Of a DNA stretch of 64,000 bases, positions 970 through 11,520 are shown piece by piece. The DNA lies in contig JAFSXU010000064.1 of NCBI GenBank assembly GCA_017443895.1, positions 1 through 64,000 on the forward strand, written 5' to 3'. The notes under the pieces are model-generated. The model did not search any database. It had not been told where the DNA came from and worked only from the letters and a program-made list of their open reading frames with translations. The stretch's first letter is position 1; every line of letters starts with the position of its first letter. Origin of the DNA: Clostridia bacterium (lineage in GTDB: Bacteria; Bacillota; Clostridia; UBA1381). The position numbers and the translations under genes are program-made.

Positions 970-1518
970 ATGCCAACAAAATCAAATAACATAGGCGGTC
1001 GCGGTGGCAAACGACTGGGCGCCGGACGCAAGAAATCCGCTGCAAAAGAAAAAGCCGAAAGCGGTAATCCGGGCGGCAGAAAATTGGCGGTTTTGGACAT
1101 ACCCGAAGTTGAGGGTGTTGAAATGCCGAGGCCTCACGATTTTCTATCGGCAGAACAGAGAGACGGAAGTACGCTTCAGGCGGAGGAAATATACTCCGAC
1201 ACATGGGAGTGGCTCAAAAAGATAGGCTGCGCCGCAAAAGTATCTCCTCAGCTTTTGGAGCGATATGCTATGTGCAGCGCACGGTGGATACAGTGCGAGG
1301 AAATGACTAACCGCATGGGTTTCCTTTCAAAGCACCCGACCACGCAAAAGCCGATACCATCTCCCTTTATCAATATCGGCATCAATTATATGAATCAGGC
1401 GGTGCGCCTGTGGAACGAAATATTCCAAATCGTAAAAGAAAATTGCAGTACAGACTATGGGGACTCCTCTCCGCAGGATGACCTTATGGAAAGATTGCTA
1501 AAAGCAAGGAAAGGATAA
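970..1518 (+). CDS. terS: Phage terminase small subunit, P27 family
   Basis: 182 residues. The N-terminus is basic and glycine-rich (GGRGGKRLGAGRKKSAA, residues 9-25), as in P27-family small terminases that recognise the packaging site. A conserved helical core follows (IYSDTWEWLKKIG, then LLERYAMCSARW around residues 97-111) and a C-terminal stretch MNQAVRLWNEIFQIVKEN. It should form a ring that loads the large terminase onto DNA. The large subunit normally follows directly, but here it lies 7.8 kb downstream. Confidence 0.88.
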   Translation: MPTKSNNIGGRGGKRLGAGRKKSAAKEKAESGNPGGRKLAVLDIPEVEGVEMPRPHDFLSAEQRDGSTLQAEEIYSDTWEWLKKIGCAAKVSPQLLERYAMCSARWIQCEEMTNRMGFLSKHPTTQKPIPSPFINIGINYMNQAVRLWNEIFQIVKENCSTDYGDSSPQDDLMERLLKARKG

Positions 1519-4889: not shown

Positions 4890-5579
4890 ATGACAGTAAC
4901 TTATGCAAAAATCAAATTTAATGTCACAGGCACAAAACGAAAAGAGCTCGTGAGCCTTATTTCACGCTTCACAGGTTGTGATGCGAAGTACAAAGGCGCG
5001 CCGTCGTTTGCCTACGAGGTGGACTACTTCACCATCGACAAAAACGGAACGCTCATATTTGATGACAGAGCCGACAGCGAGGTTATCGAAAGACTGCTCG
5101 AAATGCTCTACGACAACGGCTTTATTGCCGAAAATGATGAAACGGAGCAGGAACCGCAGGCGGACGAAACAGGACTGACGATTGAAATTCCCCGTGATAA
5201 AGTCGATTACAACAAATTCATAAAACAGCTTCAAGTTAAAAAGAGTCTAATAAAACAGGCACTTGAAGTTGATGATATTGTTATACCGCACACACAGGAT
5301 AATATTTCATTCCGTTGGTTTAACAATGTTGAACCAAGAATTGCAAAGGCTTATGACGAATTTTTATCCGCCCTTTACAAATTCACAAATAAGCAAACAA
5401 GGATAAACTCGACTGAAGCAAAATCGGAAAATAAAAAGTACGCATTTCGTTGTTTCCTGCTTCGGCTCGGTTTTATCGGCTCAGAATATAAAGAGACCAG
5501 AAAAATCCTGCTCAGAAACCTTGAAGGCAGCAGTGCATTTAAAAACGGCAGAACAAGCGAGGTGACAGAAAATGACTGA
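4890..5579 (+). CDS. Phage accessory protein of unknown function with C-terminal module shared with the amidoligase
   Basis: 229 residues, not assigned to a function. The N-terminus (1-80) looks like a small alpha/beta domain, followed by an acidic linker (81-95) and a helical region. Residues 183-221 (YAFRCFLLRLGFIGSEYKET, then a segment ending SAFKNG) closely match the C-terminus of the amidoligase 1.3 kb downstream, so the two proteins share a portable module. Ribosome site AAAGGAGG at about 4872-4879. It overlaps the next gene by 8 bases. Similar proteins are often labelled virulence-related in Firmicutes mobile elements, but I see no basis for that. Confidence 0.8.
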   Translation: MTVTYAKIKFNVTGTKRKELVSLISRFTGCDAKYKGAPSFAYEVDYFTIDKNGTLIFDDRADSEVIERLLEMLYDNGFIAENDETEQEPQADETGLTIEIPRDKVDYNKFIKQLQVKKSLIKQALEVDDIVIPHTQDNISFRWFNNVEPRIAKAYDEFLSALYKFTNKQTRINSTEAKSENKKYAFRCFLLRLGFIGSEYKETRKILLRNLEGSSAFKNGRTSEVTEND

Positions 5580-5796
5580 CAGGTTTTTCACCGTAACCAA
5601 ATGCGACCGTTGCGGAGCCTCGCTTGACGGTGGCAGAATAATGTCAATGTTCAATACTGACTGTATTTGTATGGACTGCCACAAAAAGGAGCGTAAACTC
5701 CCCAAATTCAAGGAGGCGCTTGATGCAGAACTTGCCGAAATACAGCGTGGGAACTACAATTTCAAGGGCATCGGATACCCCGATAAACAGATGTAA
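5572..5796 (+). CDS. Small zinc-ribbon protein
   Basis: 74 residues with two CxxC pairs: KCDRCGAS (10-17) and CICMDCHKKE (31-40). This forms a single zinc ribbon, followed by a charged helix. The start ATG overlaps the preceding stop, so the two are translationally coupled. Function unknown; possibly a DNA- or RNA-binding accessory factor. A second, unrelated zinc-ribbon gene lies at 7416 in the same block. Confidence 0.8.
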   Translation: MTDRFFTVTKCDRCGASLDGGRIMSMFNTDCICMDCHKKERKLPKFKEALDAELAEIQRGNYNFKGIGYPDKQM

Positions 5797-5914: not shown

Positions 5915-6859
5915 ATGACAGAAAGAACATTAAACCAAATCACAGAAATGAAAAAGCAGACCATAGGCGTTGAGGTTGAAATGAACAACATCAGCAGAGA
6001 AAAAGCAGCGAGAGTTGCAGCCGAGTATTTCGGAACACACCGCTACCAAAACACAGCAAGCCGAAACGGTTACATGACCTGGTCAGCTTGGGACGCCGAC
6101 GGCAGAGAATGGAAATTCCAAAAGGATGTAAGCATTCAAGGCCCCGACGACGAGAAATGCGAACTGGTAACGCCGATACTTTACTACAGCGACATTGAAA
6201 CCTTGCAGGAGCTTGTAAGACGGTTAAGGAAAGCAGGAGCAAAAAGCGACTACTCAAGAGGCTGCGGAGTACACATTCACATCGGCGCAAACGGACACAA
6301 CGCCAAGACCTTAAGAAACCTTGCAAACATCATGGCAAGCCACGAAAGCCTTTTGATAAACGCAATCAACATTGACGAGGGCAGAACGAGAACATACTGC
6401 AAAACGGTAAACAGAAACTTCTTAACAGCCCTCAATCAAACAAAGCCAAGAACCATGTCGGCGCTTGCAGATGTTTGGTACACATCACAGGGAGCAAGCT
6501 ACGGACGGAGCCAGCACTACAACGAAAGCAGATACCATCAGCTAAACTACCATTCAGTATTTACAAAAGGTACGATTGAGTTAAGACTTTTCCAATTCGA
6601 CATACCGAGAAACGGAAAGAAAAACGGCCTCCACGCAGGCGAGCTTAAAGCCTACATACAGCTTTGCTTAGCGCTTTCGCAAATGGCAAAAACAGCAAAG
6701 AGCGCAAGCCCCAAGCCACAGCAAAACGAAAACCCAAAATACGCAATGCGGACTTGGCTCCTACGCCTCGGATTTATCGGAGACGAATTCAAAACCGCAA
6801 GAGAGGTTTTAACAAAAAGACTTGAAGGAGACTGCAGTTTCAGACACGGCAGAGCATAA
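5915..6859 (+). CDS. Amidoligase-family enzyme (GCS/ATP-grasp-like peptide-bond former)
   Basis: 314 residues from ATG 5915, chosen over an upstream GTG (5867) that lies inside the promoter tail; AGGAG is at 5901-5905. It carries the amidoligase_2 hallmarks: GVEVEMN (18-24), an acidic metal-binding strand as in glutamate-cysteine ligase; CGVHIHIG (117-124), a metal/nucleotide histidine motif; and GTIELRLFQFD (219-229). Members are predicted to form amide bonds between an amino acid and a peptide or amine with ATP. Residues 275-314 are the module shared with the protein at 4890. Two gamma-glutamylcyclotransferase-like genes follow, the expected partners for such a ligase. Substrate unknown. 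Confidence 0.87.
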   Translation: MTERTLNQITEMKKQTIGVEVEMNNISREKAARVAAEYFGTHRYQNTASRNGYMTWSAWDADGREWKFQKDVSIQGPDDEKCELVTPILYYSDIETLQELVRRLRKAGAKSDYSRGCGVHIHIGANGHNAKTLRNLANIMASHESLLINAINIDEGRTRTYCKTVNRNFLTALNQTKPRTMSALADVWYTSQGASYGRSQHYNESRYHQLNYHSVFTKGTIELRLFQFDIPRNGKKNGLHAGELKAYIQLCLALSQMAKTAKSASPKPQQNENPKYAMRTWLLRLGFIGDEFKTAREVLTKRLEGDCSFRHGRA

Positions 6860-6861
6860 AG

Positions 6862-6935
6862 CGAAGGTGATAGCCTTCCGCCGCCTTCCCGACCGCCACG
6901 AGCGGTCTTAAGGCAGTAGAAGGGTGTTACCTTCG
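6862..6935 (+). promoter_or_regulatory. Structured leader between amidoligase and first cyclotransferase gene
   Basis: CGAAGGTGATA (6862-6872) can pair fully, with two G-U pairs, with TGTTACCTTCG (6925-6935). Inside are GCCTT/AAGGC and a tip GACCGC-CACGA-GCGGTC (6891-6907). The right arm CCTT can alternatively pair with the AAAGG of the next ribosome site. This resembles an on/off translational switch. Function is inference. Confidence 0.45.
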
Positions 6936-6942
6936 GAAAGGA

Positions 6943-7419
6943 ATGATGAATACTATGAAAAAATACTACATTGCTTACGGGAGCAATTTAAACCTCCCAC
7001 AAATGCAGTACCGCTGTCCGACTGCAAAAATCATCGGCACGGCATTGATTAAAGACTACGAGCTACTCTTTAAGGGTGGTTTCGGATACGCTTACCTCAC
7101 CATTGAACCAAAGCAGGGCGAGCAAGTACCCGTCGCAGTATGGGAACTGGAAACAGCCGATGAGAAATCGCTTGACCAATACGAAGGGTACCCGAACTTT
7201 TACTACAAAAAGGATATGACGGTTACGGTAAAAGATATACAAACGGGCGAAGAAAAGGTCCTGGATGCGTTTGTATACATAATGCGCGAAGAACATAAAT
7301 GCAGTATTCCGTCAATGCGATACTGGGAAACCTGCCTTGACGGATACCGAAGCTTTTGCTTTGACGAGGCGGTGCTAAGGAAGGCTGCAATAGAAAGCGA
7401 GAGGAGATGCAAGGAATGA
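6943..7419 (+). CDS. Gamma-glutamylcyclotransferase-like (AIG2 fold) protein 1
   Basis: 158 residues, or 154 if the in-frame ATG at 6955 is used; the family N-terminus fits the latter (KKYYIAYGSNLN), while AAGGA at 6938-6942 touches the first ATG. YGSN is the substrate-binding loop of the cyclotransferase fold, and the conserved acidic site is in DQYEGYPNFYYKK. Known relatives release 5-oxoproline from gamma-glutamyl amines or peptides. Placed directly after the amidoligase, it could remove or cyclise what the ligase adds. A zinc-ribbon gene overlaps its end. Confidence 0.87.
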   Translation: MMNTMKKYYIAYGSNLNLPQMQYRCPTAKIIGTALIKDYELLFKGGFGYAYLTIEPKQGEQVPVAVWELETADEKSLDQYEGYPNFYYKKDMTVTVKDIQTGEEKVLDAFVYIMREEHKCSIPSMRYWETCLDGYRSFCFDEAVLRKAAIESERRCKE

Positions 7420-7625
7420 AGGTTCAAATCACAAGAGAAAGAAAATGCCCCATTTGCGGCGGAATATATACCGGAGCGCCTGCCATGTCAAGGACTGATA
7501 ACAAGACCTTAATATGCAGTGATTGCGGCACAAGACAGGCTTTGATGTCAATAGGTGTAAATAAGTCGGAGCAGGATAAAATACTTGAAACGATACATCG
7601 GTTCAAGGCTACCGAAGATCAGTAA
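7416..7625 (+). CDS. Small zinc-ribbon protein 2
   Basis: 69 residues from ATG 7416, which overlaps the preceding stop. Two CxxC pairs, CPICGGIY and CSDCGTRQAL, form a zinc ribbon at residues 9-38, followed by a helix. The same kind of protein occurs widely in Clostridia mobile elements. Function unknown. It is co-transcribed with the first cyclotransferase-like gene. Confidence 0.75.
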   Translation: MKVQITRERKCPICGGIYTGAPAMSRTDNKTLICSDCGTRQALMSIGVNKSEQDKILETIHRFKATEDQ

Positions 7626-7666
7626 ACTACACAAAAGCCAGGAAAGAACATTGTGTAGTAATCGTA

Positions 7667-7695
7667 TTGATATATGCAGGTATTTATTGTAATAT
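7667..7695 (+). promoter_or_regulatory. Accessory-block promoter, copy 3
   Basis: TTGATA (7667-7672), 17 bases, TAATAT (7690-7695). Upstream the boxes CTACACAA (7627-7634) and TTGTGTAG (7651-7658) form a perfect inverted repeat. The spacer differs from other copies (no CAGAGG). Confidence 0.65.
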
Positions 7696-7721
7696 CCTAT
7701 ACGATGAAGGAGCTGATGAAA

Positions 7722-8213
7722 ATGAAAAGATACTACATTGCATACGGCAGCAATATAAATATGTTTCGCATGAAAGGTCGCTGCCCAAATGCCGAACTGC
7801 TCGGTACGGCAACACTAAACGGTTGGGAGCTATGGTTTAAGAAAAGCAAAACAGGCGCATACCTCACGATAGAAGAAAATCCGACCAGGAGCATACCTGT
7901 GGTTGTTTGGAGCATAAGCGCTGACGATGAGGCAACTCTTGACCGCTGCGAGGGGTTCCCTGTTTGCTATTACAAGCGGAGACTGAAGGTAAAATACAAG
8001 GGTATATCCACAGGCAAGGAACGAACCGTACACGGCTTTACCTACATAATGCCCGAAGAACGGGAATACGGAACACCAACCGACGGGTATATGAACATCT
8101 GCATTGCCGGATACCGTACATTCAAGTTTGACCGCAGAGCGCTGTATGAGGCAGAATATAAAAGCAAACAGATGGAAAGGAAAAGACGAGGCTGGTATAT
8201 TTACGAGCCGTAA
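7722..8213 (+). CDS. Gamma-glutamylcyclotransferase-like (AIG2 fold) protein 2
   Basis: 163 residues from ATG 7722, chosen because AAGGAG (7707-7712) lies 9 bases upstream; longer versions would start inside the promoter. It begins MKRYYIAYGSNINMFRMKGR with the YGSN loop and has DRCEGFPVCYYKR in place of the partner's DQYEGYP. It is clearly a diverged paralogue of the gene at 6943 (similar layout, TYIMPEE versus VYIMREE), so there are two enzymes of this fold in one cassette. The tail is basic (KSKQMERKRRGW). Confidence 0.86.
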   Translation: MKRYYIAYGSNINMFRMKGRCPNAELLGTATLNGWELWFKKSKTGAYLTIEENPTRSIPVVVWSISADDEATLDRCEGFPVCYYKRRLKVKYKGISTGKERTVHGFTYIMPEEREYGTPTDGYMNICIAGYRTFKFDRRALYEAEYKSKQMERKRRGWYIYEP

Positions 8214-8328: not shown

Positions 8329-8595
8329 ATGTCAAAGAAGGAACAAATCACTACATTAGCAGATCACGGGTTATGGAAAGAAGGCGGAATGAAAGTCGGA
8401 AACAGCATATTCCAGTTCTGGGCAAAGGTATATGACCTGCCGTCAGATTACGGAATAGAAAACGGCAGGATTTCAAAGCTTACTCTCCGCCGAAACGGAA
8501 AAATTGTATGCAACTACGACCGTGGCTGGGATATAGAGCCTGTGGACGATGATACGAAAATGGCGGTGGCGGTAATGCTTTACAGCTACCAATAA
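8329..8595 (+). CDS. Small phage accessory protein (DUF7678-like)
   Basis: 88 residues. It has a hydrophobic beta-rich core (FQFWAKVYDLPSDYG), then GRISKLTLRRNG and NYDRGWD. It resembles a small family of mobile-element proteins with the same GRISKL...NYDRGW pattern, which I recall as DUF7678; the name is uncertain and no function is known. AAGGAGG precedes the ATG by about 10 bases. It stands alone between its own promoter and a terminator. Confidence 0.75.
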   Translation: MSKKEQITTLADHGLWKEGGMKVGNSIFQFWAKVYDLPSDYGIENGRISKLTLRRNGKIVCNYDRGWDIEPVDDDTKMAVAVMLYSYQ

Positions 8596-9231: not shown

Positions 9232-9285
9232 AGAGCCTCAAGGCTCTGTTCCTCTCTATACACAAGACCGAAAGGTCTATTTTTT
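9232..9285 (+). terminator. Tandem hairpins and terminator before terL
   Basis: AGAGCC-TCAA-GGCTCT (9232-9247) followed by AGACC-GAAA-GGTCT (9265-9278) and ATTTTTT. The second is a good rho-independent terminator and ends the accessory block just before the large terminase gene. Confidence 0.75.
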
Positions 9286-9307
9286 GTGCCTTTTAGGAGG
9301 TGATAAT

Positions 9308-10909
9308 ATACGAAAACTAAAGAAATATACGCCAACGCGGTTTATGGAAAAGACCTCGCACTATGATAAGGACGCCGCCGATTATGCGGTAATGTTCATA
9401 CAAGCGCTTAGCCATACAAAAGGCACCTGGGCTGGCAAGCCGTTTGAGCTTATCGACTGGCAGGAACAGATTATCCGAGACCTGTTCGGTGTGGTAAAAG
9501 AAAACGGCTATCGGCAGTTTAATACCGCATATATCGAAATACCTAAAAAGCAGGGCAAGTCTGAGCTTGCGGCGGCGGTTGCTCTTCTTCTCACCTGCGG
9601 TGACGGTGAAGAACGCGCCGAGGTCTACGGCTGTGCGGCGGATAGAAACCAGGCAAAGATTGTATTTGATGTTGCGGTCGATATGGTTAGGTTTTGTCCC
9701 GCCCTGTCAAAGCGGGTAAAGATACTCGAGTCGCAGAAAAAACTTGTGTATAAGCCGACAAACAGCTTCTATCAGGTGCTTTCTGCGGATGTGGCGAACA
9801 AGCACGGCTTTAACACCCACGGCGTCATATTCGATGAACTTCATACCCAGCCGAACAGAAAACTGTTTGATGTTATGCTTCAAGGCTCCGGCGATGCAAG
9901 AATGCAGCCTCTGTATTTTCTCATAACCACAGCCGGGAACGATGTAAATTCGATATGCTACGAGGTGCATCAAAAAGCCATAGACATACAGGAAGGCAGA
10001 AAGCACGATCCGACATTCTATTCCGTGATATACGGTGCCAAACCCGAGGACGACTGGACAGACCCAAAGGTGTGGAAGAAATCAAACCCGTCCCTCGGCA
10101 TAACGGTCGGGATAGATAAAGTTAAAGCTGCCTGTGAATCGGCAAAGCAGAACCCCGGCGAGGAAAACGCATTCAGACAGCTCCGTCTGAATCAGTGGGT
10201 AAAACAAACGGTCAGGTGGATGCCAATGGAAAAGTGGGACGCTTGTTCATTTCCCGTTATTCCCGATGATTTGGAGGGGCGTGTTTGCTACGGTGGTCTT
10301 GACCTTTCATCTACAACGGACATTACGGCATTTGTGCTTGTATTTCCTCCGATTGACGATGACGATAAATATGTTGTTCTGCCGTATTTCTGGATACCCG
10401 AAGATAATATTGACCTGCGAGTGCGCCGCGACCATGTCCCGTATGATTTATGGGAGCGTCAGGGTACCCTGCAAACAACAGAGGGAAATGTCCTGCACTA
10501 CGGATACATCGAAAAGTTTATCGAATCACTCGGTGAAAAATACAATATCCGAGAAATCTCCTTCGACCGTTGGGGCGCTGTTCAAATGGTGCAAAACCTT
10601 GAGGGTATGGGATTTACGGTAGTTCCTTTCGGACAGGGATTTAAGGATATGTCACCGCCTACAAAGGAGCTTATGAAACTGGTACTTGAGGGAAGAATTG
10701 CACACGGCGGTCACCCCGTTCTTCGATGGATGATGGATAACATATTTATCCGAACCGACCCTGCGGGAAACATAAAACCCGATAAGGAAAAATCAACAGA
10801 AAAGATAGACGGCGCAGTTGCAACAGTTATGGCTCTTGACCGCGCCATAAGATGTGGGAACGATACCTCGGAGAGTGTCTATGACAGCCGAGGTATTCTC
10901 TTTATTTGA
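9308..10909 (+). CDS. terL: Phage terminase large subunit
   Basis: The ATP-driven DNA-packaging motor and nuclease. The ATPase half has a Walker A-like IPKKQGKSE (about residues 78-86) and Walker B VIFDELHT (173-180). The nuclease half has GGLDLSSTTD (first acidic residue) and KIDGAVATVMALDR near the end. Total about 533 residues, normal for the family. The start is unusual: AGGAGG (9295-9300) is 7 bases before an ATA codon in frame at 9308 and no ATG is near. Alternatives are TTG 9284 (upstream of the ribosome site) or ATG 9344. The packaging partner terS is 7.8 kb away. Confidence 0.92.
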   Translation: MRKLKKYTPTRFMEKTSHYDKDAADYAVMFIQALSHTKGTWAGKPFELIDWQEQIIRDLFGVVKENGYRQFNTAYIEIPKKQGKSELAAAVALLLTCGDGEERAEVYGCAADRNQAKIVFDVAVDMVRFCPALSKRVKILESQKKLVYKPTNSFYQVLSADVANKHGFNTHGVIFDELHTQPNRKLFDVMLQGSGDARMQPLYFLITTAGNDVNSICYEVHQKAIDIQEGRKHDPTFYSVIYGAKPEDDWTDPKVWKKSNPSLGITVGIDKVKAACESAKQNPGEENAFRQLRLNQWVKQTVRWMPMEKWDACSFPVIPDDLEGRVCYGGLDLSSTTDITAFVLVFPPIDDDDKYVVLPYFWIPEDNIDLRVRRDHVPYDLWERQGTLQTTEGNVLHYGYIEKFIESLGEKYNIREISFDRWGAVQMVQNLEGMGFTVVPFGQGFKDMSPPTKELMKLVLEGRIAHGGHPVLRWMMDNIFIRTDPAGNIKPDKEKSTEKIDGAVATVMALDRAIRCGNDTSESVYDSRGILFI

Positions 10910-10980: not shown

Positions 10981-11003
10981 ATTTGTGAAAGGAAGTGAGT
11001 ATT

Positions 11004-11270
11004 ATGGCACAAGCAACATTTAGTGTACGCATGGATAATGCTCTGAAGCAGGATTTTGACAGCTTATGTTCGGATTTTGGAATGAGCATGTCAACGGCTA
11101 TTACTGTTTTTGCAAAAGCAGTGGTCAGAGAAAGAAGAATCCCATTTGAAATTTCGGCTTATGATCCATTTTATTCTGAGTCAAACCAAAAATATCTGGA
11201 CAGATCTCTTAAGGCATACAAGCATGGGGACTTGACTCCACACGACTTAATAGAGATAGATAATGAATAA
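11004..11270 (+). CDS. RelB/DinJ-family antitoxin
   Basis: 88 residues from ATG 11004 (AAAGGA 10 bases upstream; a GTG at 10995 overlaps that site). The ribbon-helix-helix domain covers about residues 3-50 (ATFSVRMDNALKQDFDSLC, then FGMSMSTAITVFAKAVV). The C-terminal part (LKAYKHGDLTPHDLIEID) should bind the toxin. Its last codons overlap the toxin start by 8 bases, coupling their translation. It sits with its own promoter between the large terminase and the portal, an odd place that interrupts the packaging operon. Confidence 0.92.
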   Translation: MAQATFSVRMDNALKQDFDSLCSDFGMSMSTAITVFAKAVVRERRIPFEISAYDPFYSESNQKYLDRSLKAYKHGDLTPHDLIEIDNE

Positions 11271-11520
11271 GTTATGGACTGATGATGCCTGGAATGACTA
11301 TATCTACTGGTCAACACAGGATAAAAAAACTTTAAAGCGGATAAACCAAATCCTCAAGGACATTGATAGAAATGGAAATGACGGCATAGGCAAGCCTGAA
11401 CCGCTTAAATATGAGTATCACGGATTTTGGAGCAGAAGAATTGATGATACAAATCGTCTGGTATACAAAATTGAAAATGGGAATATAGTTATTCTACACT
11501 GTCGAGGACACTATGAATAA
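11263..11520 (+). CDS. yoeB: YoeB/Txe-family mRNA interferase toxin
   Basis: 85 residues, the family's usual length. It has the typical N-terminus WTDDAWNDYIYWSTQDKKTL, the central KPEPLKYEYHGFWSRRIDD with the catalytic glutamate and arginine, and the end NRLVYKIENGNIVILHCRGH followed by Y83-E84. YoeB toxins cut mRNA at the ribosomal A site. All family landmarks are present, so it should be active when freed from the overlapping antitoxin. Confidence 0.94.
   Translation: MNKLWTDDAWNDYIYWSTQDKKTLKRINQILKDIDRNGNDGIGKPEPLKYEYHGFWSRRIDDTNRLVYKIENGNIVILHCRGHYE

Follow-up and report, generated by a model that had tools for sequence, protein, structure and literature searches.

A putative gamma-glutamyl modification system of amidoligase, cyclotransferases and a predicted dead ligase paralog in a gut-bacterial prophage

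Why should a prophage carry a putative amide-forming ligase together with two putative gamma-glutamyl cyclotransferases (GGCTs) between the genes for its terminase subunits? The question is raised by a gut-bacterial prophage of a Clostridia bacterium (contig JAFSXU010000064.1), which was analyzed within a window of 64,000 nucleotides. The location between the terminase subunit genes was already recognized in an earlier sequence-only reading of this DNA and is borne out by the flanking genes. The features of the cassette and its boundaries are as follows.

970 to 1518, plus strand: terminase small subunit gene terS, context (phrog_83, 4.8e-32).
4890 to 5579, plus strand: pseudo-amidoligase, 229 aa, a predicted degenerate full-length amidoligase paralog (phrog_2443, "amidoligase enzyme", 8e-53).
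5572 to 5796, plus strand: zinc-ribbon protein, 74 aa (phrog_27033, a single profile holding a GGCT-like region and the 74-aa-ribbon region).
5915 to 6859, plus strand: amidoligase (Amidoligase_2), putative gamma-glutamyl ligase and writer (PF12224, E = 4.1e-54; AF2 model, pLDDT 89.5).
6943 to 7419, plus strand: GGCT1, AIG2-type gamma-glutamyl cyclotransferase and putative eraser (PF06094, E = 1.1e-15; Glu81 and YGSN present).
7407 to 7625, plus strand: zinc-ribbon protein, 72 aa, found after GGCT in most window-like phages.
7674 to 8213, plus strand: GGCT2, second cyclotransferase and putative eraser (PF06094, E = 1e-8; catalytic Glu and YGSN present).
9284 to 10909, plus strand: terminase large subunit gene terL (tblastn homology of 60-90% to terminase large subunits of related loci and annotated phage records).

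After terS, the gene order is a short SAM-synthetase-like gene, a ParB-methyltransferase fusion, a second DNA methyltransferase, the 229-aa ORF, the 74-aa zinc ribbon, the amidoligase, GGCT1, the 72-aa zinc ribbon, and GGCT2. The 229-aa ORF, which proved to be the most informative neighbor, was absent from the sequence-only reading. That reading had also placed two zinc ribbons after the amidoligase; one is indeed there (7407-7625), but the other (5572-5796) lies upstream, outside 5915-8213. The conserved core of the system does not include the zinc ribbons: the ICE loci examined had no 72-aa ribbon of the window type. As for the other neighbors, the SAM-synthetase-like protein (1523-2311, 262 aa), which adjoins the ParB-methyltransferase fusion and recurs in related phages (phrog_1569), has a full match to the N-terminal domain and only a weak one to the C-terminal domain. 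A YafQ/RelB-type toxin-antitoxin pair lies on the minus strand directly upstream of terS (183-773), and a second small two-gene pair directly after terL (10995-11520) appears from its sequence to be RelB/YoeB-type toxin-antitoxin-like. A DUF7678 protein (8329-8595) recurs in related phages between the GGCT/zinc-ribbon genes and terL. In a search for anti-phage defense functions, the PADLOC models gave zero matches for six cassette proteins at E values of up to 0.1.

The identity of the amidoligase is clear. It scores 184.5 bits against PF12224 (curated cut-off of 22) over profile positions 2-244 of 245, and contains the GVEVEM and CGVHIHIG motifs pointed out earlier; no second copy was found in the host genome. 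PF12224 was its sole Pfam match at E values of up to 0.1, with no match to the GCS2 model, and none of the ligase, the GGCTs, and the 229-aa ORF could be named by an NCBIfam scan. Among 294 scorable homologs, including the window amidoligase, the GxExE, E-V-x-P, CGxHxH, R-Y, and E-x-R motifs are essentially invariant, as are E19, E21, E82, H119, H121, R205, N210, E221, and R223 (counted from the codon at 5918; plus 1 if the Met at 5915 is included), which, from what is known of the family, are the likely metal, ATP, and substrate residues. The solved folds nearest to the AF2 model in the VIA comparison are those of glutamate-cysteine ligases (YbdK-type, plant GCL, and GshA; Z of 12-14), with 1tt4, 1r8g, 2gwc, and 2d33 at Z of 12.8-13.9 over 237-252 residues, followed by glutamine synthetases and the depupylase Dop at Z of about 11. 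The Z values of 10.8-13.9 to GCS, YbdK-type, and GS chains support a glutamine synthetase/GCS fold for the model, which does not sharply distinguish glutamate-cysteine ligase from glutamine synthetase or Dop. Sequence profiles stop short of the solved ligases: a PDB sequence search with the ligase and 229-aa profiles gave zero matches, and a single-sequence hhalign comparison of the amidoligase with YbdK was not significant. The predicted function of the enzyme is probably the attachment of glutamate to some amine.

Relatives of the amidoligase show additional modules. The enzyme of NatCom_6392 (L100, 5335-6891) has 518 aa with an N-terminal extension of roughly 220 aa; there, the GGCT gene follows two small ORFs, and a 229-aa-type paralog is on the other strand. 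ICE amidoligases (48 ORFs) share with an unrelated DUF6103 protein (about 22) a C-terminal tail (e.g., L250, 9001-10044 and 11669-12031) composed of an acidic stretch and then G/A-[MLF]-[ST]-M-S-M, which the window amidoligase does not have. The tail occurs in 71 of 3121 ORFs of at least 90 aa, compared with about 0.07 expected from internal rates, and is possibly a sorting or conjugation signal.

The two YGSN-type cyclotransferase-fold proteins named in the sequence-only reading were likewise confirmed, with PF06094 scores of 58.6 (GGCT1) and 36.2 bits (GGCT2) against a cut-off of 22.8, and both match phrog_2520. A search with the family profile recovers human GGCT at 1.4e-21, and the catalytic Glu residues align. 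In the tree, GGCT2 groups with GGCTs of other phages and not with GGCT1, which does not support the idea that it is a recent tandem duplicate of GGCT1. For cyclization, GGCT requires a glutamate that is gamma-linked and has its alpha-amine free, and it is predicted that GGCT1 and GGCT2 probably take the attached glutamate off again. Two overlapping tandem GGCT genes also occur in Bacillus phage G (gp513 and gp514; L105, 4586-5438), near a GatB/YqeY-like gene and with no recognized amidoligase beside them.

The amidoligase and GGCT genes are tightly linked. In the window, the amidoligase and GGCT1 are 84 bases apart on the same strand, an arrangement of the Firmicute amidoligase-AIG2 type. We collected loci seeded by amidoligases in viral contigs and species genomes, comprising two phage groups, Faecalibacterium-type phages, and ICEs, and 277 of the 282 loci with enough sequence had a GGCT gene on the same strand, no more than 3 kb downstream. 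Among the five exceptions, one encodes an amidoligase-GGCT fusion of 513 aa (L300), and the other four have no recognizable GGCT nearby. Across 249 surveyed genomes from the host phylum, all 22 strong amidoligases adjoin a GGCT gene, although any GGCT of this AIG2/GGCT family is present in only 76 of these genomes. GGCT relatives were found in 44 of 50,697 phage records, and by list comparison 41 of these also match the amidoligase or its C-terminal module. In the reverse test, an amidoligase gene was directly upstream in all 32 GGCT-seeded viral loci with upstream sequence, the viral loci of the separate searches partly overlapping. Chance linkage was rejected on the basis of these counts (277/282, 22/22, and 32/32).

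The catalytic Glu of GGCT is kept in all 302 loci (243 distinct) that have an active ligase and a scorable GGCT. In 27 other loci (21 distinct by sequence), GGCT is present with no active ligase in view; here, the catalytic Glu is replaced by Ile, the YGSN loop is changed, typically to YGVG, and a dead amidoligase paralog is visible in 24 of the 27. Among the viral loci compared, an intact GGCT was found in none without an active ligase, and no amidoligase was found elsewhere in eleven of the viral records with a dead GGCT that were searched, several of which are fragments. The dead GGCTs form one clade (support of 1.0) nested in the active phage GGCTs, and their genes are under purifying selection, with a median dN/dS of 0.16 compared with 0.11 for the active ones. 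The coupled loss is one evolutionary event. It supports the interpretation that the writer and eraser act on one product and, single as it is, says that without the writer there was no further use for the eraser chemistry, although the scaffolds of both proteins remained useful. This natural experiment of paired active-site loss suggests a mutual dependence of the two enzymes. Both checks proposed in the sequence-only reading, co-occurrence beyond chance (in viral/ICE loci, phylum genomes, and the reverse test) and conservation of the catalytic residues (invariant where the pair is intact, with losses confined to loci that lack the active ligase), were therefore passed, so its idea of a pair that makes and removes a tag is well supported, although it was already in the literature.

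Based on these results, we propose, with a probability of about one in two, a reversible gamma-glutamyl modification in which the amidoligase is the writer, GGCT is the eraser, and the dead paralog is a reader or regulator. The amidoligase would be an ATP-dependent ligase of the glutamine synthetase/glutamate-cysteine ligase fold that couples free glutamate through its gamma-carboxyl to an amine, the acceptor most likely being a host protein or one of the element; the GGCTs would release the glutamate as 5-oxoproline and restore the amine, and the dead paralog would probably bind the same target or the active ligase. Gamma-glutamyl chemistry may be common to both enzymes because the ligase model is nearest to glutamate-cysteine ligases and GGCT is nearest to human GGCT. 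Family chemistry thus points to a gamma-glutamyl product, and if the enzymes share it, then glutamate would be the donor, with one residue added via the gamma-carboxyl, which is our main mechanistic inference. Of the peptide or gamma-glutamyl tag suggested earlier, the latter is retained as a single gamma-linked glutamate, while a peptide is less likely because of the same ligase resemblance and the free alpha-amine that GGCT requires. The place of the pair in packaging and conjugation operons suggests that it may act when DNA leaves the cell.

Less likely, the product of the ligase is a soluble compound, either a gamma-glutamyl amino acid or a gamma-glutamyl polyamine, that GGCT degrades, and the pair serves in auxiliary metabolism or nitrogen handling. 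Free amino acids are the substrates of the YbdK-type and GshA-type ligases, whose folds are nearest; human GGCT, which the GGCT family profile resembles, is active on gamma-glutamyl amino acids; and nitrogen metabolism was proposed by the authors who reported such genes in Phage-ZRK32 (PMC10945688). However, a maker and a destroyer of one metabolite placed together would run a futile cycle that only burns ATP, and binding to a macromolecule more easily explains why a dead ligase, and in one lineage a dead GGCT, has been kept under purifying selection. A protein target for the proposed modification is favored over a free metabolite for these two reasons.

It has also been proposed that such enzymes serve superinfection exclusion, in which the ligase would decorate the cell envelope with amino acids or peptides and so keep competing phages from entering. 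The proposal was made for phiEco32 and is cited as the 2009 prediction in PMC11318856 and PMC11253131. The ICE copies also adjoin an M23 peptidase gene. However, in the phages the genes belong to the packaging region, and GGCT cannot act on an amide whose Glu has a blocked alpha-amine, as is the case in peptidoglycan stems. We therefore consider this explanation unlikely.

A reader or regulator role in the proposed gamma-glutamyl modification would fall to the 229-aa ORF, which is publicly annotated as a "virulence-related protein" and which no Pfam or NCBIfam model names. We interpret it as a full-length amidoligase paralog that, judged from its residues, is catalytically dead. It might instead owe only its C-terminal module to the amidoligase and be a different protein in all other respects, perhaps an accessory for packaging or DNA binding, since blastp of the window ORF against the amidoligase gives 42% identity confined to the 69-aa C-terminal module. 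The AF2 model (pTM of 0.64) had no confident Foldseek match in BFVD (best of 4e-3; the weak matches included two "amidoligase" entries) and mixed weak VIA matches with Z below 8; these probably reflect two halves that are not packed confidently in the model. On the other side, hhalign of the 229-aa family with the amidoligase profile over the whole proteins gave a probability of 99.9 (E of 4e-34), and without the C-terminal module the N-terminal parts still aligned with an E value of 1.3e-11, compared with 0.02-0.5 for eight column-shuffled profiles and 0.14 for a reversed profile. Intermediates (e.g., 8178-8915 of L102/L335) align to ligase residues 110-312 (33%, E of 7e-28) with EISLPLA in place of HIHIGA, and the N-terminal profile of the 229-aa family finds several ICE amidoligases at E values of 7e-6 to 9e-5. 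The helix/strand order of the two models also appears to correspond by eye. The profile comparisons and intermediates led us to reject the sharing of a C-terminal domain only, and an unrelated protein is very improbable. The catalytic positions are gone across 73 members of the family; in the window ORF, those aligned with E19, E21, H119, H121, and E221 are replaced, and the E82 and R205/N210 segments are missing, so that activity as an amidoligase is not predicted. The dead paralog occurs alone in many phages, including Streptococcus phages, and in 82 viral loci it was seen with neither ligase nor GGCT in view.

We can tentatively extend the gamma-glutamyl modification to mobile elements at large, with a writer, an eraser, and dead-enzyme readers: the pseudo-amidoligase would bind the target or the tag, and the lineage that keeps only the dead ligase and the dead GGCT might use them as binders, such as decoys or shields for a target modified by competing elements. 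This extension is rather doubtful, and both the protein target and the binding role would be inferred only.

Most phage loci with the pair, in terminase-linked phages of gut Firmicutes, have the same terminase neighborhood, as expected if the genes were merely co-inherited there with no functional link, but such hitchhiking is largely refuted and can be given hardly any weight, because the pair is inside the conjugation operon of ICEs, between VirB4 and the M23 peptidase and with no terminase, is on the strand opposite to the terminase in NatCom_6392, occurs in an unrelated Bacillus phage (26%-identical ligase, with GGCT about 1.1 kb downstream), is fused in one protein, and lost its catalysis jointly. 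The ICE surroundings include TrbL, DUF6103, an actin-like protein, and MobL relaxase.

With the widespread "virulence-related protein" recognized as a dead amidoligase, a misleading name can be dropped and a bait for the target becomes available, and the dead copy, together with the lineage with joint active-site loss, makes the joint function of the pair testable. If the product is protein gamma-glutamylation, then this would be a reversible modification used by phages and conjugative elements alike.

Compared with YbdK (GCS2), whose GIELE, GQHVHVG, and GTVEVRV motifs are of the same types and in the same order as those of the amidoligase in an alignment by eye, the amidoligase model has its best structural matches but no significant sequence alignment. 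In human GGCT (2pn7), the catalytic Glu, which is the mutated residue of 3cry/2rbh, corresponds in the alignment to Glu81 of GGCT1, whereas the window GGCTs are phage encoded and in an operon with an amidoligase. Pupylation (PafA/Dop) has in common with the proposed system the carboxylate-amine ligase fold (Dop at Z of about 11) and the logic of reversible protein modification. However, no Pup-like peptide was noticed here, and the eraser has an unrelated cyclotransferase fold.

The amidoligase/GGCT pair itself is already known. Iyer and colleagues are said to have predicted in 2009 a Firmicute gene pair of an amidoligase (PF12224) and AIG2/GGCT. Later reports include Arthrobacter cluster AL phages (PMC5513430), prophages of C. 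clostridioforme LM41 (PMC11318856), Terrisporobacter phage TPDSL_ph1 (PMC11253131), and Tn6164 (PMC3485107), which has the same order of SAM synthetase, DNA methylase, "virulence-related" protein, amidoligase, AIG2/GGCT, and terminase. In the literature searched, no substrate has been reported for such pairs; nor did we find, in what were mostly papers outside subscription, an earlier account of the pseudo-amidoligase identity or the coupled catalytic loss, both of which appear to be new. Compared with the reported Firmicute pairs, the window has two GGCTs, the "virulence-related" neighbor is identified here as a predicted dead amidoligase, and the coupled catalytic loss, the copies in ICE conjugation operons, and the amidoligase-GGCT fusion are added.
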